From the NCBI GenBank assembly GCA_948567375.1, contig OX419762.1, positions 29,703,465 through 29,767,464 on the forward strand: DNA of 64,000 nucleotides, read 5' to 3'. The notes under the pieces were generated by a model. The model was given only the letters and a program-made list of their open reading frames with translations. It did not search any database and was not told the DNA's origin. The position numbers were made by a program, and so were the translations under genes. The stretch comes from Lunularia cruciata (taxonomy: Eukaryota > Streptophyta > Marchantiopsida > Lunulariales > Lunulariaceae). Shown in pieces: positions 34,571 through 58,600 of the stretch; within the stretch, counting starts at the first letter, position 1, and each line of letters starts with the position of its first letter.

Positions 34571-36160
34571 GGACCCGATGACAAATTCAAGTATAACACC
34601 AAGGTATGAATTTCAGATTAGGTTGTTTGGCACCTTTGAGTAAGACATCTAAGAATAGTCAGTCCCAAGATGGGAAGTTTTTTGAGAAGGTAGCCATAGA
34701 GCAAGCCTTGAAGGGAGGTGGGTCCCAAGATGGGAAGTTTGCAAGGAAGGCAACCATGGAGTAAGTTTTCAAGAGAGATGAGTCCTTAGATGGGAAGTTT
34801 GTTAGTGAAGCAACCATAGAGCAAGCTTTGGAGGAAGATAAGTTTGTATTTGCAATGTGTACTAAACCAATTGCACAAGGACAATCTGAGGAGGGCCAAG
34901 AGTCTCATCAAGCAATGGTTGATCAGATAGTTCAAGAAATTCCGGATGTGTTTTTGGATGATCTGCCGAAGGGATTACCTTCTGATTGTGGTATGCCCTT
35001 CAAGATTGAGTTATTGCCAAGGAATACTCCAATGAGTAGACCAATCTATTGGCTCTCACCAAAGGAGTTAGAAGAGTTACAAATAAAACTTATGGAGTTG
35101 TTGGAGAAGGACTTCATATGACAAAGTACCTCTCCTTGGGGAGCATCGGTACTATTTGTTCCAAAGAAGGATGGAGGACTTTGTTTTTGTTTACTGTGTG
35201 CTCAATAAGCAAATAGTGATGAATGCATATCCCTTGCCTTGGATCAATGACTTGCTTGATCAACCGAGTGGAGCACGATACTTTTCCAAGTTGGATCTTC
35301 ATAGCGACTATTAGAAAATCCCCATTGATAGGAAGGATGTGCAAAAGATTGCTTTTTGTACAAGGTATAGGCATTTCAAGTAGAGACTTCTACTTTTTGC
35401 ACTCACTAATGCTCCAACAATCTTCATGGATCAGATGCATCGGGTGTTGGATGGACTATTGGATCAATATGTGGTGTTGTTCTTGGATGATATCTTAATC
35501 TATAGTAAGACAAAGGCAGAACATGTGAATCATGTGCAAGAAGTCCTAAGACGACTACTACAATGGAAATTTTATTGCAAGAAGTTGAAGTGTGCCTTTT
35601 GGTAAAAGGAAGTCACCTTCTTGGATCACAAGATCTCATAGGAAGGGATCAAGATGGAAGAGGAGAAAATCAAGGCCATTACTGATTTGCCTACTCTAAA
35701 GGATACTACAGAAGTAAGGGCATTTAATGGATTGGCCAGGTTTTACCAACAGTCCATCCACTATTGTGCTCATGTGGCTGCACCATTGATTGAACTCTTG
35801 GGGAAGATATTGAGCTTCCAGTGGACCACTAAGCATGAAGAAGCATTCTATAAGCTTAAACATATGGTGTCTTCAAGACCCATCCTTCAACTATATGATC
35901 CTCAAGTGCCTTTTGTGGTTGATTTTGATGCTTCTGACTTTGCAATTGGAGTAGTGTTGCAATAGGAATTCCCAGATGGACTACATCCCATTGCCTTTGT
36001 GTCTTGCCAACTAAATAAAGCTGAAAAAAATTACTCTACTTGAGATCAAGAACAAGTTGCAATGGTATATGCCACCAAGGTATGGAGGCATTATCTCTTG
36101 GAGAAACAAGTGATCATGCAAACTAATCACAAACTATTGTTGTAGACCTTACACTTGGAA
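34571..36160 (+). pseudogene. Reverse transcriptase and RNase H of the older chromovirus
   Basis: A spacer containing three copies of a block with GGGAAGTTTG and GCAACCATAGAG (34660-34830) leads into IPDVFLDDLPKGLP, then RPIYWLSPKELEELQ (RT entry), KKDGG, YPLPW and KLDLHS. The catalytic FLDDIL is at 35480-35497, followed by IYS. RNase H is seen as VVDFDASDFAIGVVLQ (about 35917-35965) and YATKVWRHYLL. Stops and frameshifts are numerous. Confidence 0.88.
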
Positions 36161-37319
36161 CATGAAGAGTTGACATCATTGATGGGAGAAACAACTCCAA
36201 TTGTTTGACATCAAACTTAAGTATAAACTAGGTCGGTTCCATGTCATCCTTGATGCTCTTTCACGATGACCTGATTTGAAGTCTCTTCCTCTCATCACGG
36301 TAGCAATTATGATGGTGTCTATTGACTTCAAGGTCCAAAATGAGTTTTGTCAACTCTACAACAAGATCCTTCTTCCAAATGGTACATGGTCATCTTATAG
36401 CATGAAACAAGGAGTACAACACCTTCTCCTTCAAGGAAGGCCTTCTTTTCCATGAGGACCAGATCTATGTTCTAGCCAAAGGCAATGTCCAACTTGTGCG
36501 CCTACAAGAAGCCCATGATTTACCAATAGCTGGTCACATGGGTGTGAACAAGACCTTGGGTACACTCCAACATCGATGGTGGTGGCCCAACATGACACGA
36601 GATGTTCAAGAGTTTGTTTGATTATATGAGAGTTGCCAATGTAACAAGGCCAGCAACCAGAAGCCAAGTGGACTCCTTCAACCACTCCCAATTCCATCCA
36701 CTCGATGGGAACACGTGAGCTTAGATGTCATCACATCCTTGCCCAAGATAAAGAAAGGACACACAACAATTGTGTTGTTTATGGATAAGCTTAGTAGAAA
36801 AATCCACTTGGAACCAACCTTTGATACCGTGGATGCTCCAACCTTAGCACAAATCTACTTTGACAATGTCTTCAAGCATCATGGGATGTCACATGTACTC
36901 ATCTCCGACCTGTGATCTTTGATTCATTGGGAAGTTTTGGCAAACACTCTTCCAAATACTTGGCACCAAGCTTGCTTTGTCCATGGCCTATCATCCTCAA
37001 CCTGATAGACAAACCAAACATGCAAATCATACCTTGGAGGATATGCTACGTGCTTTCATCAATGTCCACCATACCAATTGGGATGAATGTTTTGCAATTG
37101 CAGAATTTGCTTACAATAATTCCAAATAGACAAGCACCAAATTTTCTCCTTTCTTTCTCAATGTGGGCCAAGATCCGCTTGTTCCAGATTCTCTTCTTGC
37201 TCTTCCTCCATCTCAGGTCCCTCATACTTCAACCTTCTTAACAACCATATCCCAATCTCTCCAACAAGCCAAATCTCACCTCCTTGTTGCTCAAAATTGT
37301 CAAAAACACTACGCGGACC
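36161..37319 (+). pseudogene. Integrase of the older chromovirus
   Basis: The zinc-binding region GHMGVNKTLGTLQHRWWWPN then CQCNKA lies near 36535-36650. The core has SLDVITSLPKIKKGHTTIV with the first Asp in the 36715-36915 frame, and a degraded ISDL region where the second Asp lies. An A/P-rich HGLSS remnant follows. A solo LTR interrupts the frame at 37320, exactly inside the segment equivalent to QKHYAD-HHR. Non-functional. Confidence 0.85.
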
Positions 37320-47626: not shown

Positions 47627-48113
47627 TGTCGTGCATATATATATCGCTACACAACATACATCGCTGTCAACATCATACACTATAGAAGAACAACAATCAG
47701 ATTGCTTACCACTCTCAACTCAACTCAACTCAGATCAGTACTTGATATGGCACTCTATAAACTGCCAACAATTGGGCAATGATTACAGTCAAGCCACACC
47801 CACTCAAGCATAGAGAATCCAGGTGACGCTCGCCGGCCTCTGTCCACCATAGCCAGGAACTCGAAGGCTCAACTTCAAAACTATACCCCTTGGACTCGAG
47901 CTAGCTCTGAAACCCTAACGGTCCCGCTGACGGCACACTTGACGGTGCAAACAATACAAAGTGATGGTGGGCCCCACCATGAAGTCAGTACCCTAAGCAC
48001 GAAATCTGACCATCGGAAAGTAGTCTCTGAGAAACTACTGAAATAACTCTAACTACTATCACTGGAACTCTAGTGTTCGAGCATCTAGATGCAGCACTAC
48101 AAATGGCGTGACA
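47627..48113 (-). repeat. 3' LTR of the DNMT-bearing element with extra 68-bp segment
   Basis: The part 47695-48113 aligns with the 5' LTR at 58150-58600. It is preceded by a 68-bp segment (47627-47694, with TATATATATCGCTACACAAC) that the 5' LTR lacks. That segment recurs at 48116-48183, directly beyond the LTR on the internal side. The boundary could be either 47627, supported by the ACAT duplication, or 47695. Confidence 0.7.
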
Positions 48114-48115
48114 GC

Positions 48116-48183
48116 TGTCATGCGTATATATATCGCTACACAACATACATCGCTGTCAACATCATACACTATAGAAGAACAAC
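48116..48183 (-). repeat. 68-bp direct repeat flanking the 3' LTR
   Basis: It matches 47627-47694 with about two changes. Both begin TGTC-TGC and end GAAGAACAAC. It includes an alternating TATATATA stretch. Confidence 0.9.
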
Positions 48184-48219
48184 TCACACATAAGTCATAC
48201 ATAGACTCTAAAGTGCCAC

Positions 48220-48234
48220 AATTGCCCCCCCCTA
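48220..48234 (-). promoter_or_regulatory. Candidate polypurine tract of the DNMT-bearing element
   Basis: On the element strand AGGGGGGGGCAAT lies about 105 bp before the LTR core, in the short 3' region after the pol stop at 48392. It is the only good purine run there. If this is the true tract, the LTR would begin at TGTGGCAC (48220) and the 68-bp repeat would lie inside it. Confidence 0.45.
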
Positions 48235-48391
48235 GTTGGCGGTTAGGCCCCTCTAACTCCAGATAGCCATCTACTCTAAGTATATGGTATACCCTCTAAT
48301 GGGCAAAGATCAGGAGGCCGGGTGCTATGGAACCCCATCGTTAGTCGCCTGTCTGCAATCTATACCATATAAAGAATGAACTAGCTATAGG

Positions 48392-48700
48392 TCAAGTACA
48401 TCTAGGACATAACCATTGTCCCTAAGGAACCACCATGAGGGGAGGAGTCATACATGCCATATGCCATCCTCTCAAACAGCTATCACACACTAACATAGTA
48501 GCAGCTCCTCTAGAAGAGCCACATAACATACACCTCAAGCTTGCACGTACAAGTGCCAAGCTTGGGTTCATAGTACCATCAATGTTTGGGAGGTGGCATG
48601 GTGCACAATTGCGCACATGATCCTTCCAAACAACACCATCACGTCCTTCTAACACAAGGACTCCAGATGGCAAAACCTCATGCACTCTCAAGATAGTGCG
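48392..48700 (-). pseudogene. PHD finger and basic tail at the end of the DNMT-bearing element's integrase
   Basis: This C-terminal pol segment follows the integrase tail HVRNCAPCHLP. It has a complete C4HC3 PHD signature: CMLC (48521-48532), then CDSC, then GWHMAC, then, past one in-frame stop, WLCPRC (to 48398). Pol ends at TGA 48392-48394. Spacing (C-x2-C, x11, C-x2-C-x4-H-x2-C, then C-x2-C) and the GWHMAC-TPPL segment are typical of histone H3-tail readers. Chromoviruses carry a chromodomain here, and by analogy the finger may steer integration to particular chromatin. The stop (VVP, stop, GQW) is the only break in the finger. Confidence 0.87.
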
Positions 48701-49895
48701 GCCTGTAGAAACATCAAGTGTTGTTGGTGTTGTCTACTGTAGATATACATAATTGCTTGGATGAAATCAACGGAGCGAGGGTCTATAACCTCCTCCTTGA
48801 ATGGTAGCATAGCGTAAAGTATCTCTATGTTGAGCAATTGCCAAGTTCTCAAAGGCCATCGGCATCACTCTTTAAAAGATCTCTGCCCGCTGAGAACATG
48901 CACTCATCCATACATTAGGGTCATCCAAGTCCAAAACTACAGTAGCATCTCGACAAATGGCTGTAAGTAAATCAAGATCTTGTCCATAGAGTAGAAAGTA
49001 TGGAGAGAAGGATGCTAAGGAGGCTTGCTGGCTGAACCGATAGCCCATGGCCAACCAAGGTAATTGGAGATCCCAATCTCCCAAGTGGGCTCTCTGCAAA
49101 CCATACTTTCGCAATCCTCTCTTCACCGTCTGAACCACTCTCTTTGCTAAGCCATCTGCCTCAAGGTGATCTCAGGATGTAGTATGATGATCAATCAAAG
49201 CCTTGTCACACAAGACCTGAAACTCCCCCAAGAACTCTGTACCTTGATCAGTCAAAACCTCAGTTGGTGCACCAAAATGACTAAGAACTCGATCCAGGAA
49301 TGAGTAAGTTGTCCCTTCACTAGACTTGTCAGGAAGTGCCACCAACTCAATCCACTTGGAGAAGTGATCCACCATCACCAAAACGTACCAATGATGTCTC
49401 ATAGTCAATGGTAAAGGTCAGGTAAAGTCCAAACTCCAACGGTAACCCAATCCCATGATAGGTAATGGGTGTAACTGTGGCATAGGAGCATTGAATGATG
49501 CTCTAACTTGGTCAAAAACCACACATCTGGCAACAAACTACTATACCTTGGTCTGCATACCGCGCCACCAATAATGACTCTAGAGTAAGCTATATGTACG
49601 CTTTACTCCAAAATGTCCTAGCTCCTCATGAGCATGACAAACCAACTGTGGTCTTTGAGATGGAAGTGGTACTACTCGCACTCTACCATCTTCCCATACA
49701 CACAAAAGGTGTCTACCCTCCAATCTGAACCATCTGGCTTGCTGAAGAACACAGTCTCTCTCCTTGGCCCCAACTGTGCCACCCACAACACTAGTGCGAA
49801 GATAGTCCATCACTAAGACATCATCATGAATGTCTCTCTGAACTGTACCAATATGTTCACTCTCCGGATCTGTGACCTCAATAACTCCTCCTATA
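48701..49895 (-). pseudogene. Integrase of the DNMT-bearing element
   Basis: The integrase inserts element DNA into the chromosome. It has a zinc-binding N-terminus (HAHEELGHFGVKRTYSLL, stop, then HYWWRGMQTKV) and first catalytic Asp in LVMVDHFSKW. The second is in VLTDQGTEFLG. The third position reads EADGLAKRVVQT, where related integrases have Glu at the Lys (AAG at 49142-49144). A single G-to-A change thus removes the DDE triad. Next comes the C-terminal region with ILRVHEVLPSGVLVLEG (GPY/F-like SH3 fold). All blocks share the frame used from RT to PHD, broken only by stops. Confidence 0.88.
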
Positions 49896-51457
49896 TGCGC
49901 TGAGAGAGATACCACCAAAGCCTCTACAAATATACACAGAAACACCGATGCATGCCAACCTAGCACCATCTCCTCATCTGTCTCACCATGCCAATGTGCT
50001 CCGGTCTGATCGTGCTGGCTGGGACATGGGTTTCTACTCAACCTATTTGCATCACAGTTCACCCCTCCAGGTCTGTGAACAACCGTGAAATCATACTCTT
50101 GTAAAATCAGAGCCCATTGTGCAAGCTTCCCTGAAAGCATGTCGGACTCCATCAACCACTTCAGCGGCTGATGATCAATGATGAGAGTGAAAGGGTTACC
50201 AAATAGGTAACATCAAAAATGTACTACTGCCCAAACTGCTGCCAAGCACTCTCCCTCATATGAACTATACTTTGCCTCCGCTGAATTGTTGGAGCGACTA
50301 GTATAGGCCACCACAAACTCCTTCCCCTCATCATCGTGTTAGGTGAGCACCGCTCCAAGCCCCAACATACTCCAATCAGTGTGAACCTGAAATGGTCGTC
50401 CCCTAATTGGTCTCCTCAAAATAGGAGCAAATGTCAACCTCTCCTTGAGCTCTACAAAAGCTCTCTCCTGCTCATCTCCCCAACACCACTCATGTGTAAG
50501 CTTGGTCAACTTTGTCAAGGGCTTGGCAATGGCACTAAATCCTCTAACATAGCGGTGATAGAAGTTTGCCAACCCAAGTAATGCTCGCACTCTGCTCACA
50601 TCCGTAGGCCAAGGAATACGTGCAATAGCCTCCACCTTGGTCTGCTGGACTTCAAGTCCTCTAGGGTAGATATTGTGACCCAAATACTCAACTTGCTCAT
50701 GGAAGAACCTACACTTCCCAGGATGTAATTTGAGTCCATGAGATCTCAACCTCTCAAACACCTCCAACAACTATCTCTCATTCTCCTCCACAGTAGTGCT
50801 ATAAACCAAAATATCATCAATATAGCATCGAGCAAAATCCAATCCAACTAGGATCCTATCCATGACCCTCAGGAACTAAGCAGGAGCGTTCTTTAACCCA
50901 AATGGTAAGAACCTCCACTGATATAACACATCCTTACCGTGAGGATCAATAGCCCAAAATGCTATCTTGGACTTATCCTCCTCTCTGATCGGCAACTGAT
51001 GATATTCCGCTCGAAGATCCAAAGTACTGAAGACCTTTGCATGCCCAATTGCATCAAAAATCTCCTCCGATGTAGGCATGGCATACCAATCAGCCCTGGT
51101 CTGCCGGTTGATAGGACGGTAATCTCCACACATATGCCTATCTATATAGTTGCCATGCATATCCTTCTTGGCTGGCATCATTGTCGCTGATGCATACTCT
51201 CCATGTGAAATCTCCACCAAACCAGCCTCAAAAAGGTCACTACTCCGGCTCTGAATTAATGTCCTCTCCATTTCACTATATCGATAAGGACGTCGGAAAA
51301 CTAGTGTATTGCTAGTCAGCTCAATCCGTATACTAGGTCCCTTCAGAGCACCCAAATCCTTCATACTGAAGGCAAAACAACTCGTGTGACTCCTCAAGAA
51401 CCTCCAACCCTCCGTCTTTCCTCTCCAGTAAGCTTGGGTCCAAGATCCGGCTCCCAA
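49896..51457 (-). pseudogene. Reverse transcriptase and RNase H of the DNMT-bearing element
   Basis: RT blocks are RPYRYSEMERTLIQ, then CGDYRPINRQT, STLDLRAEYHQLP and WRFLPFGLKNAPA. The catalytic CYIDDILVYS (YIDD codons at 50813-50824) follows. The connection subdomain includes GKCRFFHEQVEYLGHNIYP and ALLGLANFYHRYVRGFSAIAK. RNase H has VHTDWSMLGLGAVL, YSSYEGECLAAVWA and IIDHQPLKWLM. HRPGGVNCDANRLSR marks the junction to the integrase. YIDD rather than FLDD separates this lineage from the two chromoviruses nearby. Stops occur after NAPA, at 50339 and elsewhere. The frame is otherwise continuous. Confidence 0.92.
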
Positions 51458-51834
51458 GTATCCTTTGTAACTGTAGTAAGAGTGGAAGACGTACTAACTG
51501 ACTGCTACACTGGGCCCTTGGGAACAATAGTGTCATGCTCCTGACCACTAGAGGTCCCAACCTCTGTGTGAAAAACTCCCTCCACTCTGGCTGCAAGCTC
51601 CACACGTCCTCTAGCTGCATCCCATGTGGACCAAGTGTGTAATCCAAGTAGCCCACGCTCACCTGGATGGACTCCAAGTAGACCACTCTCCCTAGTAGCT
51701 ATTGGATGTGTCCCAAGAATACCATATCCACTCAGTCCATCGCCCCTAGCATGTGCCTGAATCTTCTCAATAGGCATAGGGCTCACAAGTGTCCGAGTGG
51801 TGATGCCTATCAAGCACATACTACATTGCTTTGC

Positions 51835-52782
51835 CAAGCCAAGGCTCACAATCCAAGTCAAACAGTTCAGGTCCATAGCTTGACCTAACACCTGACGCCT
51901 AGATGCCTCAGACACTACTGGAACAGTGGTAATACCGGTGCAAAAACCCATCACCCGCTCTCTCTCATCAGCGTAGTGCTCCACCAACTGTTGTAACTAT
52001 GAGTCCCAAACAAGTCCAGGTCCTCCCTCTCAAAAAGCATGAGAGCCTAGGAAACTCATGAGTATGGGAAATGTAGCTCTAGGCTGTCCAACTAGGTTCA
52101 CCATTGCCATAGGTGACCTATCAGCCACTACCATTGTCTGAGACTGACACCCAACATCCAAGATATCATCAACAAGGATGTGGTCAAGTCGTTGAATCCC
52201 ATCACAAGCGTGTTGTAGAACCTCTCTGGTAAGAGGTTTGTCCACCAAAGACAAAGACAATGAGCCCGTGATCCCACTCTGGCTGCATCTAACAATACAG
52301 CAGGTCCCATCCAAGAATGGACCTGATGTGTACTTGCCTCCACTCTAGTGCAAGAATCACCCATCAAAGGAATGTTCTCCAAAAGGTAAGCTAGAGAAAT
52401 AGATTGATGAACCTGGAGATGTCGTAGTATTTGTAACATCTCCCAAAACACACTAGAATGAGGATCTTGAAGACCCAATCCTCTTCCAGCATGTGTATGT
52501 CCCTGACATGGCCATCCAGAAATCAACAAGTGAATAGGCCCATGTCTCTCTAGGTCATGCGCTCTTAGTAAGGAAATGTCTCTTGGTAGGGTCTTCTGGT
52601 AACCTCTGACTGTTGACATCGGTAATAACTCTGGATACCAATAGGCCAAGTGTGCCACATGATATAGAGAGACTCGCTAGCAGTCTTATCTCTCTTTATA
52701 TACAAGTACCTTTGTACTTGTATACCCGCCTATAACACCGTAGCTAGTCCGGTGCTGATCCCACCAAACAACTCCAATAGGC
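51835..52782 (-). pseudogene. DNMT3-type cytosine-5 DNA methyltransferase domain inside the retroelement
   Basis: The domain would methylate cytosine at C5 using S-adenosylmethionine. Motif I ELFGGISTGL (AdoMet binding) is at about 52774-52745, followed by GIQVQRYLY. After a frameshift comes ARH-type sequence VSLYHVAHLAYWYPELL. Motif IV HLLISGWPCQG carries the catalytic Cys at about 52500-52517. The FWEMLQILRHLQ helix, motif VI LLENIPLMG (52368-52379) and motif VIII LDAARVGSRAH with WWTNL follow. After another shift, a target-recognition-like stretch leads to ADERERVMGF and motif X RRQVLGQAMDLNCL (about 51895-51860). Motif order I-IV-VI-VIII-X is that of DNMT1/DNMT3, not the rearranged DRM order. 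GGISTGL, the FWE helix and the ENIP-VG spacing resemble DNMT3. Catalytic Pro-Cys is retained, but frameshifts and stops disable this copy. Confidence 0.88.
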
Positions 52783-53023
52783 ATATCCCCTCTACTGGAT
52801 ATTGCCAAGCAATGAGTGTGGTATCCAGAGGTGTCAAAGCAATCGCCTTTGGAGGCTCATCCTCACACTCATCTCCTGATGGTACAAAGGCTCCACTCCA
52901 ATAGGCATATCCCCTCTACTGGATATTGCCAAGCAATGAGTGTGGTATCCAGAGGTGTCAAAGCAATCACCTCTGGAGGCTCATCCTCACACTCATCCCT
53001 TGATGGTACGAAGGCTCCACTCC
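52776..53023 (-). repeat. 124-bp tandem duplication at the protease-DNMT junction
   Basis: Copies 52776-52899 and 52900-53023 differ at only a few bases. They encode IALTPLDTTLIAWQYPVEG and CLLE, which runs into motif I in the left copy. The duplication shifts the frame because 124 is not a multiple of three. Ignoring one copy puts the linker and motif I in the same frame. Confidence 0.95.
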
Positions 53024-54110
53024 AAGCTTGCTGCACCAACTGATCTGCATGCTGCTGCAATGCCTCCTCTAAACTCCACAATAGAACATCCAAGGTGGAT
53101 GGAACAATCCCACTCGTACTCCATAGCCGAGTAATCTCCTCTGGTACAGGAGTATCCTCTGCATGGGCATTCCCCTCCAACAAGTCACCAGGCCAAGTAA
53201 CTGCACCACTAAAAGCTAAAACTGATGCTGCCATGGTCCTGGACTATAGTGAGCCAAGACTACCACTACTGAAGCATACTGGTAGGCGACATACCTGTCC
53301 CTCACCAGATTGCCAACCAGGTCTATAAGAGGTTGTCTCCTCCCAATAGTCAATGCTGAAACCCATGGGGTATAACACTGCTCCCCCAACTAGCACATCA
53401 TATGACTCAGCTATCGTCGCAATAGCCTGAGCTCTCACCGCCGAGCTATCAATTGGATGACCAGGCTGAACCTAGACAACAAGCTCTCCACGTGTGATGT
53501 ACTGTGTCGAACAACCACCTAGAGATGTTTGGATCTGAAATGGATACCTCTCTACATCGGTCTTCTATAACTCTAGACCAACAACTACAGCCTTCCCCAA
53601 CATAAGGGGCTGTGCACCAGAGTCTAACAAGACTCTCTATGGTGTATAGATCTTTCCCGAAGGTCCCACCAAACAAAAAATCCCCCTCTGGTTATCCAAT
53701 AGGACAACACTAGGTGTAAACCACGCTCTCTCAAAGGCGGGTCTAGCTGGCAACTCCTCCAGTCTAGCCGCTGCTGCTTGCCATAAACCACTGGTTGCTG
53801 AACGGATCCCATGCTCCTCAACCAAGTCAGCTCCACTACCAACCACCTCTGCTCTAGTAGTAGGAACTACACCATCCCTACTCTCACACAATGTGGCAGC
53901 CAATCGGAACATTGGAGTTGGGTCAACTCCCAATGTAAACATATCACTGGTCAAAAACAAAGGACGTCGCATAATCAGCTGAGCCGCCCCCAACATCATG
54001 CTAGACTTAGTCTGTGTAGTAGCAAGTGGCTGACTAGTAGGTAGTCCATCATGTATTCCATCACCACCTACCACACGTACATTGGGACGTATAGGAACCA
54101 TGGATGTCAT
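52869..54110 (-). pseudogene. Aspartic protease and linker of the DNMT-bearing element
   Basis: The retropepsin core RVLLDSGAQPLMLG (about 53637-53595) carries an intact Asp-Ser-Gly and is preceded by an in-frame stop. The second hydrophobic block is DVLVGGAVLYPMGFSIDYWEET (53375-53310), then RPGWQSGEGQ. Upstream (54110-53640) is an Ala/Thr/Leu-rich linker after the zinc knuckle. Downstream (53234-52870) is an acidic linker (DECEDEPPEV) that runs toward the methyltransferase. The whole stretch uses one frame with several stops, so protease, linker and DNMT were probably one polyprotein. Confidence 0.85.
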
Positions 54111-54373
54111 CTACAATGCCTCAAATAGCATGAAAGACTGGGGAAGTCTGACTTGTTTCCCAATCTCTCCTCTCTATGGGTCCAACTCCACTGATGCTCC
54201 TCTAGGCTCTGAGCATGTACTGCACTCCTAGTCACTACTACAGATGCATCCACCTGTGCTGCTCCGCACATGAAGTCCAAAGCATCTCTATCACCCGCAT
54301 ATGAGGTGGAAGCCTCAGCACCCAAATCTAATCTCCTCTGAGCAATAGCCATACTAGCCAATCTCTGCTCCAA

Positions 54374-55496
54374 CTACTCAATCCAAGTAGCCATAGTTGT
54401 GTCAGAAGTAAGGGAAGGTACTGCACCCCTACTAGGTGTAGGTCGTCTACCACCACCTTGTCCTCCATGAACTGGAGCTCCTCTACTACCTGCCATAGCA
54501 GCCCTACCACTCCGTAACTCCGGGTGTAGGTCAAAACACCGGTCACTAGTGTGACCAAATTTGGGGCAATGCTCACACTGCCTCTGTGTTGGCTGTGATG
54601 CACCCAAGGTATCAAGTCCACTACCTTGCAATACACTCTCTCCGATGGTGAGGTCCACCACAAGTCCAACAAGCAACACCACCACTCACTAGCTGCTATT
54701 GACCCGAAAATGAGGGTAAGGGTCTAACTCCACTAGGCCCTCCACTCGCTCCAAAGGATCTGGGCTGTCCACCTTGTCCTCAAAAACTAACTAGGCGTGG
54801 TGCACTATGTTGCACTCTAGAAGAAGTCACAACCATGGATGAGGTCTCTCTACCAAATCCAGATGTCACCACCCTCTCCTCCACCATGTTGAGCTCAATA
54901 CGCTCAGCCAAACCAAAGACCACTGCCAAAGTAGGCAAAGTAGCTTGTAACAACGTAGCATCACAAACTCTACATTGTAACTCCCTGTCCAGTATCCCAT
55001 ACCAAAATTGGACTGCCTGGGCCTCAGGAACTCCTTGAGTGAAACTCATCAGCCGCCTCATGCGAGTGTATGCCTTGCGTAGGCTCTCTCTAGCCTTCCG
55101 CTGGAACTCTTGCAAGCTCCTTAGCTTGTCAGTCCGCACTCCTTAGTAGTTTTGCCTCAAACATAGGAAGAACTCCACCATGGGGTTAAACCCCGATACC
55201 ACACCACCTCCTGTAGCAGTACCTCCACTCATAGTAGCACTATCTCCAGCTAGTGCACCTCCACTAGCTCCACCCACACTACTTGAGCTAGAACTCGTAG
55301 GTACAGCCAATCTACTCTTGGCCACCGAGCCTGAAGTGATGGAGACATAGTTTGGAGACCAATTCTGTCTCCATAACTCGATCTCCTCTAAATGAGCTCT
55401 CCTGAACTCATGGTAGTCATCCATCGGTGGACCCTCCAAGTGCTGAAACAACCCATTCCATGCCATGATGGGTGTGAACAAAGTTGGGTTCTGCAT
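54374..55496 (-). pseudogene. gag of the DNMT-bearing element
   Basis: The frame starts at 55496 (MQNPTLFTPIMAWNGLFQHL) with a Ser/Gly-rich loop and one in-frame stop at 55143. It continues 55139-54780 with the retrotransposon-gag core (AQAVQFWYGILDRELQCRV, then FGLAERIEL). A frameshift then leads to a CX2CX4HX4C knuckle (CEHCPKFGHTSDRC, about 54578-54537), followed by FDLHPELR, Gly/Arg-rich sequence and a coiled segment. It packages element RNA. Confidence 0.85.
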
Positions 55497-56544
55497 CTAC
55501 TGCAGATCACACCAACTATCGAACTCATGGATGAAGTCAATCCAACTCAATGGTACCCACTATACCAGAGTAACACTTAGGGCCTTTGGAGGCCCCATAG
55601 ATCTCGTCCATGTCCCACAACAACGGTGCGGACACACCAAGTGCACTCTCAACTGAATCAACTCCTATGTCAAACTCTAACTCAGAGTCAATCTCCTCCC
55701 TCCCTGGGACCTGAGATACAAGCTGATACCAAGCACCACTCCGAGTAAACCCACTACGTACTGCAAGGCTATTTTCTCTAGAATCTCCAAAGAACTCCGT
55801 CGTGACAAAGTAAACACAACAGCAAACCTGAACCACCAACTGCAACCACAAGTCTCAACCGCAAGTGCTCCACCAAGTGCCAATACCACCACCAAGTGCC
55901 AATACCAACTAAGCACCACCCACTAATGTAACTCTAACCGAGATAACTACACTAGGGGAAAGGGCAACATGTAACCTACCATCATAACACGCACTCTCAC
56001 GGTCTGCAGGTAATCACTTCCTGCCTCACTAGAGAGAAACAAAGGTAGTCTGATTGGTCATCACTCCAGCCTCACCACCGAGAGCACACCAGAGCACCAA
56101 CACTCAAAAGTCAGGGCACCTCACACAAACGTGGTGCACAAATAGGAAGTAGAGAATAGAGGGGATCCAATCACAAGAAATCTAAACAAAAACCCTCCAT
56201 CTCATAACACAACACAAGTCTGACTTTGCCACCATTTGGCATTTGACATAAGAGAAGTTTGTATCTAAGTCCTAAGCTACCAAGATCACCAAGAATGGGA
56301 TCAAATTGCCTCTCCTAGCCAAAGTTACATGTGTATAGATAACAGTGGCACAGTCACTAGTACAAGAAGTGAGGGTGGACCAGTTGGCTAGGGCACCAAT
56401 CTAGGAACAAGAGATCTAGGGGTCAAACCCTGTTGCACACAATCTAGAAAGAAAGGCAGATTTTGCCAACCAATGACCAAGATCTACTCTAAACTAGCTA
56501 GTCTCACGCCAGCAAGCTGGCTTGCTGGCCCTTCAGGCCCTTCG
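55497..56544 (-). other. Leader of the DNMT-bearing element
   Basis: Element leader upstream of gag. Open frames at 55537-55919 on the minus strand, including an acidic segment (GREEIDSELEFDIGVDSVES), are unrecognised and may be an extra N-terminal extension or a separate short ORF. At the right edge lies a short palindromic AGCAAGCTGGCTTGCTGG (about 56511), next to the truncated LTR. Confidence 0.4.
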
Positions 56545-57153
56545 TAGGGACACAGATAGGTGACATGTCAGCAAGCTCCACCCTTGGATTACTTACTTGG
56601 ATGGGTGACCTGTCTGGTCTAGGTCCTATCTGGTTGGTCAAACGAGCTTTGACCGGAGGGAATCTTTTAGGGAATCTTCCTATAGGAATCTGAGAATCAC
56701 ATGAGTAAGGTACCATTGGAAAGCTCTCGAAGAGACAAACCAGGGGGGGAGGGAAGGCCAGCCTTTCCTCCGTTTGGGGGATTAATCTGCACATTTTTGA
56801 GGCCTAATTCATCCGTTTAGGCCTTTGAAATTGCCTTCAAAGATTTCAGGCATATTTTGGTTCCTACTATACTAGTAGAAGTCCCCTTTTGGTGATACCT
56901 CTTTCTGATCTTTTGAGTCCATCATGTGTAACATCCTTCCAGATGTTACCAAACCAATTCTCACCTTTAAATCATATGTCTAGCTATTGGTTCTAAGGTT
57001 CTCAAGTCTATTTCGGTTTCTGCCCTATTAGTAGAAGTACTCTTTTGGTGATACTTCTATCTGATCTATTTTGACCATCATGTATAACATCATTCTAGAT
57101 GTTACCAAACCAAATTTCACATCTAGATCATATGGCTAACCCTTGGTATTACA
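56545..57153 (-). mobile_element. 5'-truncated LTR of the younger chromovirus family
   Basis: It matches the right four-fifths of the 738-bp LTR, from TAGGGACACAGATAGG to GGTATTACA. About the first 130 bp are missing. It lies in the leader of the DNMT-bearing element, in the same orientation as the other copies. The truncated left end means it is not a simple solo LTR; a deletion or recombination is likely. Confidence 0.9.
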
Positions 57154-57480
57154 TATTATTGGACCAGGGACTTTTGAGTGTGTGACAAGGGATCTGGCAC
57201 GTAGACAGACAGCTCTACCAATCTCATGTGGTGGGGTTGGCTTACTTTCTATAGAGGAGATGGCACCTATAGCGTTTTTGGGTAGTTGGGCTCTCTCGGC
57301 ACTCCTACTTTCCTCTCGTATTGTGGTTACTGATAGGCCGGTTTTGGAGACTTATGTGACAGAGGTGGAGGAAGGATCCTTTTCTCTCCAGGTGTTATTG
57401 CGGCAGACAAGAGATAGTCTATCCCCACGAGCACAAGATGGTTTCACCGTTTGCTTCACTATCGTCAGATTGGACTAGAA
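57154..57480 (+). pseudogene. LINE-like fragment (C-terminal region of a non-LTR reverse transcriptase ORF)
   Basis: The frame 57143-57478 reads CVTRDLARRQTALPISCGGV, then GLLSIEEMAPIAFLGSWALS. This LP-GG-GL-a-AFLGSWA pattern is typical of the region after the RT domain in plant non-LTR elements. The rest is unremarkable. It starts abruptly at the end of the truncated LTR and ends with a stop at 57478. No poly-A tail or target duplication is visible. Confidence 0.55.
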
Positions 57481-58149
57481 GTCTATAGTCTTCCTTGATG
57501 GAGCGACAGTGTGAGCATACGCTACATTCTCTCTTAGTTGACTCGTCCATTCCTAAGTAGCTTCTCATAGCCCACAGCCCTATACCTCGAAACGCCAAAA
57601 CTCAGCCAAATGAGCCCTTTCTTGTTGCCACTTTGAACCTCCTCCACAACTGGTGAAACTTCTCCAAATCTGCGAAAGTCCTCCAAACTAGCAAAAGTCC
57701 TCCAAATCTGGCCAAAATCTAACGTAAATTCCAACCAAAATCTGACATAAACCCTAAAGTTGGATGTCCACCAAATCCCCCGCTAACTTTCCACTTGAGC
57801 CAAATTGACAACACGGGTTTCTCCTAATCACAAATTCATAAGAATAGCTTCACAACTCCACCTTCAATTTGACTTTCTGAGGCCAACTCGCAGCAAATTG
57901 GTCTTGCTTTCACCTCTTGAGCCCAAAATCACAACCACTGCTCAAAATTTGCTCCTTCTTTGCTCAAAATTTGGCCAGCGCTTCCGCACACCGTCCGCCT
58001 AACTACCAAATCTGCATCAATTGAACGAGCTTCTGCACACTAGGGAAACACTGAACTTGAATCGAGCTACCAACGATCCACTGAGCTTGGAGATACCACC
58101 AACACTCAAAGTTCATGCACACGATTTCCCCCTGACTTCACTTCTCTGA
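57481..58149 (-). other. 5' leader next to the 5' LTR of the DNMT-bearing element
   Basis: C/A-rich (on the plus strand) low-complexity DNA with repeated CTCCAAA and CAAAATCT phrases. No good match to the tRNA-Met primer site is found right after the LTR. The sequence there on the element strand starts TCAGAGAAGTGAAG, so the primer is unknown or the site has mutated. Confidence 0.45.
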
Positions 58150-58600
58150 TGTAATCAGATTGCTTACCACTCTCAACTCAACTCAACTCAGATTAGTACT
58201 TGATTTGTCACTCTATAAACTGCCAACAACTGGGCACTGATTACAATCAAGCCACACCCACTCAAGCATAAAGAATCTAGGTGACGCTCACCGGCCTCTG
58301 TCCACCATAACCAGGAACTCGAAGGCTCAATATCAGAGAAGTGAGCTCTCTTGAGCTCACTTTGAAACTATATCCCCTGGACTTGAGCTACCTCTGAAAC
58401 CCTAACGGGCCCGCTGACAACACACTTGATGGTATGAACAGGACAAAGTGACAGTGGGCCCCACCGTGAAGTCAGTACCCCAAATACAAAATCTAACCGT
58501 CGGAAAGTAGTCTTTGAGAAACTGCAGAAATAACTCTAACTACTATCACTGAAACTCCTGTGTCCGAGCATCTAGATGCGGCACTACAAATGGCGTGACA
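58150..58600 (-). repeat. 5' LTR of the DNMT-bearing element
   Basis: 451 bp, TGTAATCAG...GGCGTGACA on the plus strand. It aligns with 47695-48113, with an extra stretch of about 30 bp containing GAGCTCTCTTGAGCTC (about 58342-58362). It lacks the 68-bp segment present at the other end. Confidence 0.85.

Follow-up and report, generated by a model that had tools for sequence, protein, structure and literature searches.

The 64,000-nucleotide stretch of the Lunularia cruciata genome analysed here (contig OX419762.1, positions 29,703,465 to 29,767,464; hereafter the window) contains a decayed copy of a young and numerous Ty3/gypsy retrotransposon family. In this family Gag, the aspartic protease (PR) and a DNMT3-type cytosine methyltransferase (DNMT) share one frame, which ends in a stop codon of leaky type ahead of a second frame for reverse transcriptase and RNase H (RT-RH), integrase (IN) and a PHD finger. 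We place at about one half the probability of the reading that we prefer for this arrangement, in which the DNMT would most likely methylate the cDNA of the element within the particle, prior to integration. The reading is built upon the order of the domains, the in-frame TAG-CAG-YYA stop, the standing of the DNMT as a component of the family and the selection acting upon it, all of which are found in the copies themselves.

An earlier note, made from the letters of the sequence, had proposed such a methyltransferase between the protease and RT of a single Ty3/gypsy element. The motifs that it quoted (ELFGGISTGL, ISGWPCQG, LLENIP, ARVGSRAH..WTNL and VLGQAMDLNCL) are present on the minus strand in the order given, and the flanking Gag, PR, RT-RH and IN could be mapped in order around them (Table 1). 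Both the domain and its position therefore stand; the note did not mention that the copy is broken, nor did it pick up the stop of leaky type behind the DNMT, the PHD finger or the spread of relatives through bryophytes and algae. The domains of the copy run Gag, PR, DNMT, RT-RH, IN, PHD, which is the Ty3/gypsy order around a DNMT, and LTR-like direct repeats of ~420-450 bp lie at both ends. The PR-RT-RH-IN order and the long terminal repeats by which a Ty3/gypsy element is recognised are thus both found, the PR being assigned by eye (LLDSGAQ in family locus L009, in which Pfam gave no protease match) and via relatives (Pfam names a protease in the related protein P0157).

Table 1. Features of the Ty3/gypsy element, in window coordinates.
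Feature	Position	Strand	Basis or remark
Whole Ty3/gypsy element, including both LTR-like repeats	47695..58600	-	repeats and tblastn of domains
5' LTR-like repeat	58153..58600	-	84% identical, with 29 gaps, to 47695-48113
Gag region with CCHC knuckles, frame broken	54464..55538	-	tblastn with own-genome Gag; knuckles by eye in L009, L010
Aspartic protease (PR) region	53271..53648	-	tblastn with L009 stretch
124-bp tandem duplication at DNMT start	52771..53018	-	two copies, 96% identical
DNMT3-type C5 cytosine methyltransferase domain	51826..52792	-	motifs, PF00145, open relative as query
TAG CAG TCA, stop and leaky-type context between DNMT and RT frames	51499..51507	-	
Reverse transcriptase and RNase H (RT-RH)	50066..51205	-	Pfam, tblastn
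Integrase (IN; zinc finger and core)	48806..49705	-	Pfam, tblastn
PHD finger, C-terminus of integrase frame	48395..48565	-	PF00628, E=1.1e-6 in window copy
3' LTR-like repeat	47695..48113	-	ends approximate; an extra 68 bp, 47627-47694, recurs at 48116-48183

Compared with an open relative, the window DNMT falls into three overlapping pieces in three frames, which span 52792-51826. The profile PF00145, named in the earlier note as a check on the assignment, matches the piece 52676-52128 at E=2.5e-6 and passes its curated cut-off. Motif I runs into a stop codon, the 124-bp duplication is single in all 20 of the long family loci compared, and motif VIII reads RAHCLC where L009 has RAHRLR, with two arginines changed. 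With its three frames, its stop, its duplication and its altered motif VIII, the window copy is dead. PF00628 matches the PHD finger of L009 at E=6.3e-11. In the leader between LTR and Gag, a 156-bp unit is repeated in tandem at 56830-57141, its two copies being 78% identical. Two other decayed Ty3/gypsy elements lie in the window, at 31827-28892 (minus strand) and 35192-37195 (plus strand), with RT identities of 34-40%, and no DNMT match was found in either.

The 580 Mb assembly of L. cruciata is described as enlarged through Ty3/Gypsy bursts (PMC9985172, in its available text), and two samples of the family were drawn from this genome. A scan of 565.8 Mb in 74 contigs with PF00145 scored 123 places among 2,161 candidates, and 20 long loci were taken from the resulting list for their long open frames, which makes this a biased choice. 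Of the eight loci that the scan returned in detail, four look host-encoded on a reading of their translations: L001 and L004 are multi-exon and DNMT3-like, L002 is rearranged and DRM-like, and L003 is CMT-like. At motif IV, L001 (G000:C7) and L004 (G000:C1) carry FPCQ, where DNMT3A has SPCN. Among the family copies, Gag-PR-DNMT is one open frame of 1428 aa in L009 and L010, and RT-RH-IN-PHD is an open frame of 1037 aa in L013 and L014; both frames were whole together in none of the 20 fetched loci, each at most 10 kb in length for an element of ~11 kb.

The second sample was selected through RT, for which a query gave at least 126 matches at 97-100% identity, these being the best-scoring part of 46,671 candidates. 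Twenty copies were spaced along the ranking of 126 (one was shifted to the next rank, having already been sampled), and 1,501 bases upstream of RT were read in each. The full DNMT domain is held by 19 of these 20, while the remaining copy, L064, has only 6% of it within the stretch read; in seven of the 20 the domain is both ungapped and free of stops. As 19 of 20 copies chosen by their RT hold the full domain, the DNMT is a regular component of the family, as had been supposed, and not of one copy. A chance insertion in the window copy alone is ruled out by the same count. Whether intact copies keep the DNMT in frame with pol, a point that the earlier note had raised, receives a divided answer: it is in frame with Gag-PR, but a TAG parts it from RT.

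The assignment to the DNMT3 type was borne out on two lines. The best 29 of 52 matches in a sequence search of the PDB were DNMT3A/B/C (best 3.2e-11), followed by HaeIII (9.4e-4) and DRM2 (0.035), and Foldseek, run with an AlphaFold model of the domain (mean pLDDT 70, pTM 0.78, stretch 203-253 poor), agreed. All 50 of the matches listed, out of 1,520 at E<=10, were chains from structures of DNMT3A, 3B or 3C, and some of these chains may be DNMT3L. Motifs I-X of the element DNMT are in unrearranged order, those of the host DRM-like L002 being rearranged. These comparisons support the element DNMT as closest in sequence, and in modelled fold, to DNMT3, and methylation activity is predicted for it. 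A DNMT1, CMT, DRM or bacterial type was not favoured by either search. Pfam matched neither ADD nor PWWP anywhere along the 1428-aa frame. At motif IV, as counted over 100 rows with a crude pattern, PCQ is found in 56 and ECQ in 25, and the cysteine is kept in 88; only the motif IV columns of this table were used, other patterns having matched wrong places. ECQ occurs in Closterium and in relatives whose DNMT follows RNase H, an unusual change beside the catalytic cysteine.

One stop lies between the two frames, in register with both. Junctions could be read in 23 of 25 element loci (L005-L028 and the window; the pattern did not pick up L005 and L012), and all 23 carry TAG CAG followed by CCA, TCA or CTA. 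The 20 RT-selected loci have TAG CAG CCA without exception, which brings both samples together to TAG-CAG-YYA at 43 of 43 junctions. The context UAG-CAR-YYA is that of the leaky stop of tobacco mosaic virus (TMV) type; the L. cruciata family shares with it these letters and the register of the two frames, and differs in that its stop follows a DNMT and in that read-through is here a prediction. Six letters after a stop would fit CAR-YYA by chance about once in 500, assuming equal bases, and the 43 junctions are not independent observations, because the copies are young. In the second frame of L013, the first methionine after the stop comes only at residue 48.

Because a stop in leaky context lies after the DNMT, the enzyme would be made with Gag and not at the low level of Pol, with RT and integrase reached through predicted read-through. 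Proteins from other sources are of similar extent. Marchantia P0108 and P0110 and metagenome P0120, P0121 and P0126 end 41-104 residues past the matched DNMT, and no RT was found in them. By eye, the joined DNMT-RT gene models P0111 (Marchantia), P0047 (Riccia) and P0131 (Sphagnum) omit the stretch in which the stop would lie, and this omission, as judged from a comparison of proteins alone, fits a stop at that place in Marchantia, Riccia and Sphagnum too.

A comparison across copies in the manner of dN/dS, likewise suggested in the earlier note, found shared DNMT variants to be depleted in nonsynonymous changes. We took the nonsynonymous/synonymous (N/S) ratio against its expectation in the ungapped copies among the 20 long loci; the values for singletons, for variants in >=2 copies and for those in >=3 were 0.95, 0.54 and 0.39 in DNMT (19 copies), 0.67, 0.35 and 0.15 in RT-RH (17), 0.73, 0.29 and 0.15 in Gag (16), 1.14, 0.67 and 0.38 in IN (18), and 0.58, 0.58 and 0.09 in PR (20), all of them rough, with small counts, loci picked for open frames and shared sites that may be recurrent changes. 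When 40 of 45 loci were used, these being ungapped, DNMT variants in >=2 copies gave an N/S of 0.63 at CpG transitions and 0.61 elsewhere, and the ratio was 0.44 in >=3 copies and 0.27 in >=5. We take the fall from singleton variants to shared ones to reflect purifying selection along the lineage that is transmitted; on these rough values it would be weaker for the DNMT than for RT and Gag, and comparable with that on IN. Identity between the L. cruciata family and Marchantia is 64-73% for DNMT (four proteins) and 71 and 78% for RT (two proteins), such that conservation is about alike.

The window copy carries T where three other copies have C at 23.5-23.7% of CG, 16.4-17.2% of CHG and 2.6-3.1% of CHH positions, while the reverse change amounts to 5.4-11.3%, 3.0-4.4% and 1.6-2.4%, respectively; the comparison is one of the window copy with three family copies. 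Judged from this pattern of decay, the footprint is the mark of host CG and CHG methylation, and the host would eventually methylate, and presumably silence, the insertions. Since the footprint of this old copy shows host methylation, any benefit of the DNMT is expected at or before integration.

Three protein searches, each of which scored the 8,000 candidates sharing most words, returned 106, 55 and 41 matches. The relatives come from bryophytes (Marchantia polymorpha, Calypogeia fissa, Riccia sorocarpa and four Sphagnum species), from algae (Closterium strains, Klebsormidium nitens KFL_009030040 and KFL_013780020, and Monoraphidium neglectum) and, in many cases, from metagenomes; a scan of IMG/VR yielded a single locus, 29% identical along a short stretch, which was left aside. 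Domain order was parsed in 45 hand-chosen rows, three of them our own frames, with five proteins checked by Pfam. The DNMT stands before RT in 14 of the 45, the order is RT-RH-DNMT in 16, and in 15 the two domains are not both visible. The RT-RH-DNMT rows consist of Monoraphidium and 15 metagenome rows, with the DNMT between RNase H and integrase, and 11 of these 16, together with our own frame, have a PHD finger behind IN; none was found in the parsed Closterium and K. nitens rows (P0197, one of them, being incomplete).

In a tree of 52 DNMT rows, in which long branches meet and the host rows come from the L. cruciata genome only, the 49 retroelement rows split from the three host rows (100/99). 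The 16-row group that contains the RH-DNMT rows is recovered as one (98/87), the 12 rows from our family, Marchantia, Calypogeia and Sphagnum form one clade (100/100), and the K. nitens rows fall within the retroelement clade on a branch with Closterium that is weak (81/25). Sphagnum joins Marchantia (97/80), within the liverwort rows rather than outside them, a placement which hints at horizontal transfer or old element paralogy. An RT tree of 28 rows joins K. nitens to the RH-DNMT group (94/95), unlike the DNMT tree, and places the two window elements that lack a DNMT match next to Closterium (92/84, rooted at the midpoint), for which reason it is no test of the DNMT elements as one clade. 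The simplest reading would be a single capture, after which the domain moved once within the element. On a broader scale we suggest, tentatively and at something short of even odds, an ancient DNMT3-bearing Ty3/gypsy lineage in green algae and bryophytes, many of its members with a PHD finger, in which a leaky stop in bryophytes would have made the DNMT a Gag-level particle component that methylates cDNA, and in which the DNMT would have moved once, from ahead of RT to between RNase H and integrase.

How the DNMT of the L. cruciata family might come to act on cDNA can be set out in steps, all of which beyond domain order and stop we infer. Nearly every Gag precursor would carry a DNMT, and only the read-through minority would carry RT and integrase; the protease in the same frame could free many DNMT molecules within the particle. 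Double-stranded cDNA would be the DNA at hand there and the most likely substrate. It would be methylated before integration, at CG as by two tested retrotransposon DNMT3s, and the new copy would enter the nucleus resembling methylated host DNA. Such methylation could spare the cDNA from treatment as foreign; alternatively, CG methylation and the PHD finger could together steer the chromatin where the element lands, and the finger on the integrase would choose or tolerate the chromatin of that site. Against this mechanism stand the lack of methylation, itself inconclusive, by the KnitGypsy DNMT3 in yeast, the weaker selection than on RT and Gag, the ECQ rows, the host-methylated insertions and the two Ty3/gypsy elements of the window without a DNMT match.

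The DNMT may instead act at the target site, where the PHD-bearing integrase would land in chromatin whose H3K4 is unmodified and where the DNMT would methylate, such that copies settle in silent and harmless chromatin. The finger does sit on the integrase frame and recurs in 11 of the 16 relatives of RT-RH-DNMT order, and its best solved matches are the fingers of CHD4, PHF12, KMT2, KDM5 and KAT6A, several of which read unmodified H3K4; in the bryophyte type, however, a stop separates DNMT from integrase, and the lack of a PHD match in the parsed Closterium and K. nitens rows (P0197 partial) also speaks against what we regard as an unlikely explanation. An enzyme that restrains its own element, seeding the silencing of sibling copies and keeping the family harmless to its host, would agree with an old window copy that is clearly methylated at CG and CHG, as judged by decay. 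Yet decay from CHG methylation points to CMT-type enzymes rather than DNMT3, which suggests the host, and a family for which no fewer than 126 RT matches of 97-100% identity were scored is both numerous and young; restraint of this kind seems to us improbable.

Hardly better placed, and likewise improbable, is a domain whose chemistry has been lost or changed, and which would bind nucleic acid as a component of the Gag precursor or would methylate RNA. Its position is linked to Gag, 25 of 100 rows have ECQ for motif IV, and the KnitGypsy DNMT3 was inactive in yeast, inconclusively (PMC5890265), but the motif IV cysteine is kept in 88 of 100 rows by the crude pattern, and motif order and fold are those of DNMT3. 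That the window copy alone captured the domain by chance, or holds it as passenger sequence, would suit its broken state and is very hard to credit: 19 of the 20 copies selected through RT have the DNMT, related elements occur in seven further named genera, and variants shared between copies show selection.

The earlier note was right in citing de Mendoza et al. (2018) for retroelement DNMTs. Their work describes a gypsy element of Klebsormidium that contains a DNMT3, for which they place the capture in the lineage of K. nitens, as well as dinoflagellate elements with DNMTs; two SymbioDIRS DNMT3s methylated CG in yeast, and the tested KnitGypsy DNMT3 gave no methylation there, which its authors consider inconclusive (PMC5890265, main text). 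KnitGypsy-Dnmt3 resembles the L. cruciata family as a Ty3/gypsy polyprotein with an unrearranged DNMT3 under purifying selection (PMC5890265), and K. nitens P0197 shares the PR-DNMT-RT-RH-IN order. In P0197, however, the DNMT is continuous with RT, whereas in the L. cruciata family a TAG lies between them and the DNMT goes with Gag, and the PHD finger is on the L. cruciata side. SymbioDIRS-Dnmt3 and SymbioLINE-Dnmt of dinoflagellates are likewise retrotransposons with a DNMT, but of other element classes and, per PMC5890265, of unrelated capture. Physcomitrella provides examples of plant DNMT3 genes (Yaari et al. 2019, PMC6453930), which belong to the same methyltransferase class; the host DNMT3 genes have introns and form a separate clade in the DNMT tree, the element DNMTs standing apart.

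The words PHD, Marchantia and Physcomitrella are absent from the main text of PMC5890265, the available text of a 2025 survey (PMC12344493) repeats streptophytes and dinoflagellates for retroelement DNMTs, and a bryophyte retroelement DNMT goes unmentioned in the available texts of PMC6453930, PMC11244446, PMC10952607, PMC5784723, PMC9861306 and PMC7027989. Among the matches listed, which lie outside subscription papers, bioRxiv and supplements, no title concerned a gypsy element with a DNMT in a bryophyte. New relative to KnitGypsy-Dnmt3 are the bryophyte-wide occurrence, the DNMT upstream of a leaky stop and the PHD finger. A curiosity of one charophyte becomes a set of elements across liverworts, Sphagnum, Closterium, Klebsormidium and one chlorophyte, and a host-parasite contest over methylation becomes accessible in the model plant Marchantia. 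The stop after the DNMT permits a concrete claim, namely that the enzyme is produced alongside Gag and may belong to the particle, with cDNA as its likely substrate; if this is true, some insertions would arrive pre-methylated, which bears on how the silencing of new copies begins.

Among the PHD-bearing relatives, the metagenome proteins P0132, P0134, P0138, P0143, P0150 and P0151 have an extra ~250 aa C-terminal of the finger, in which DP..G and APP/SPP-like motifs are visible by eye. This tail, which in P0134 and P0151 had no Pfam match, is perhaps a second, degenerate methyltransferase. P0079 (Marchantia Mp_7g09570), annotated as a host protein, appears by eye to be a remnant of the element family, with pieces of the DNMT, an integrase and a PHD finger.
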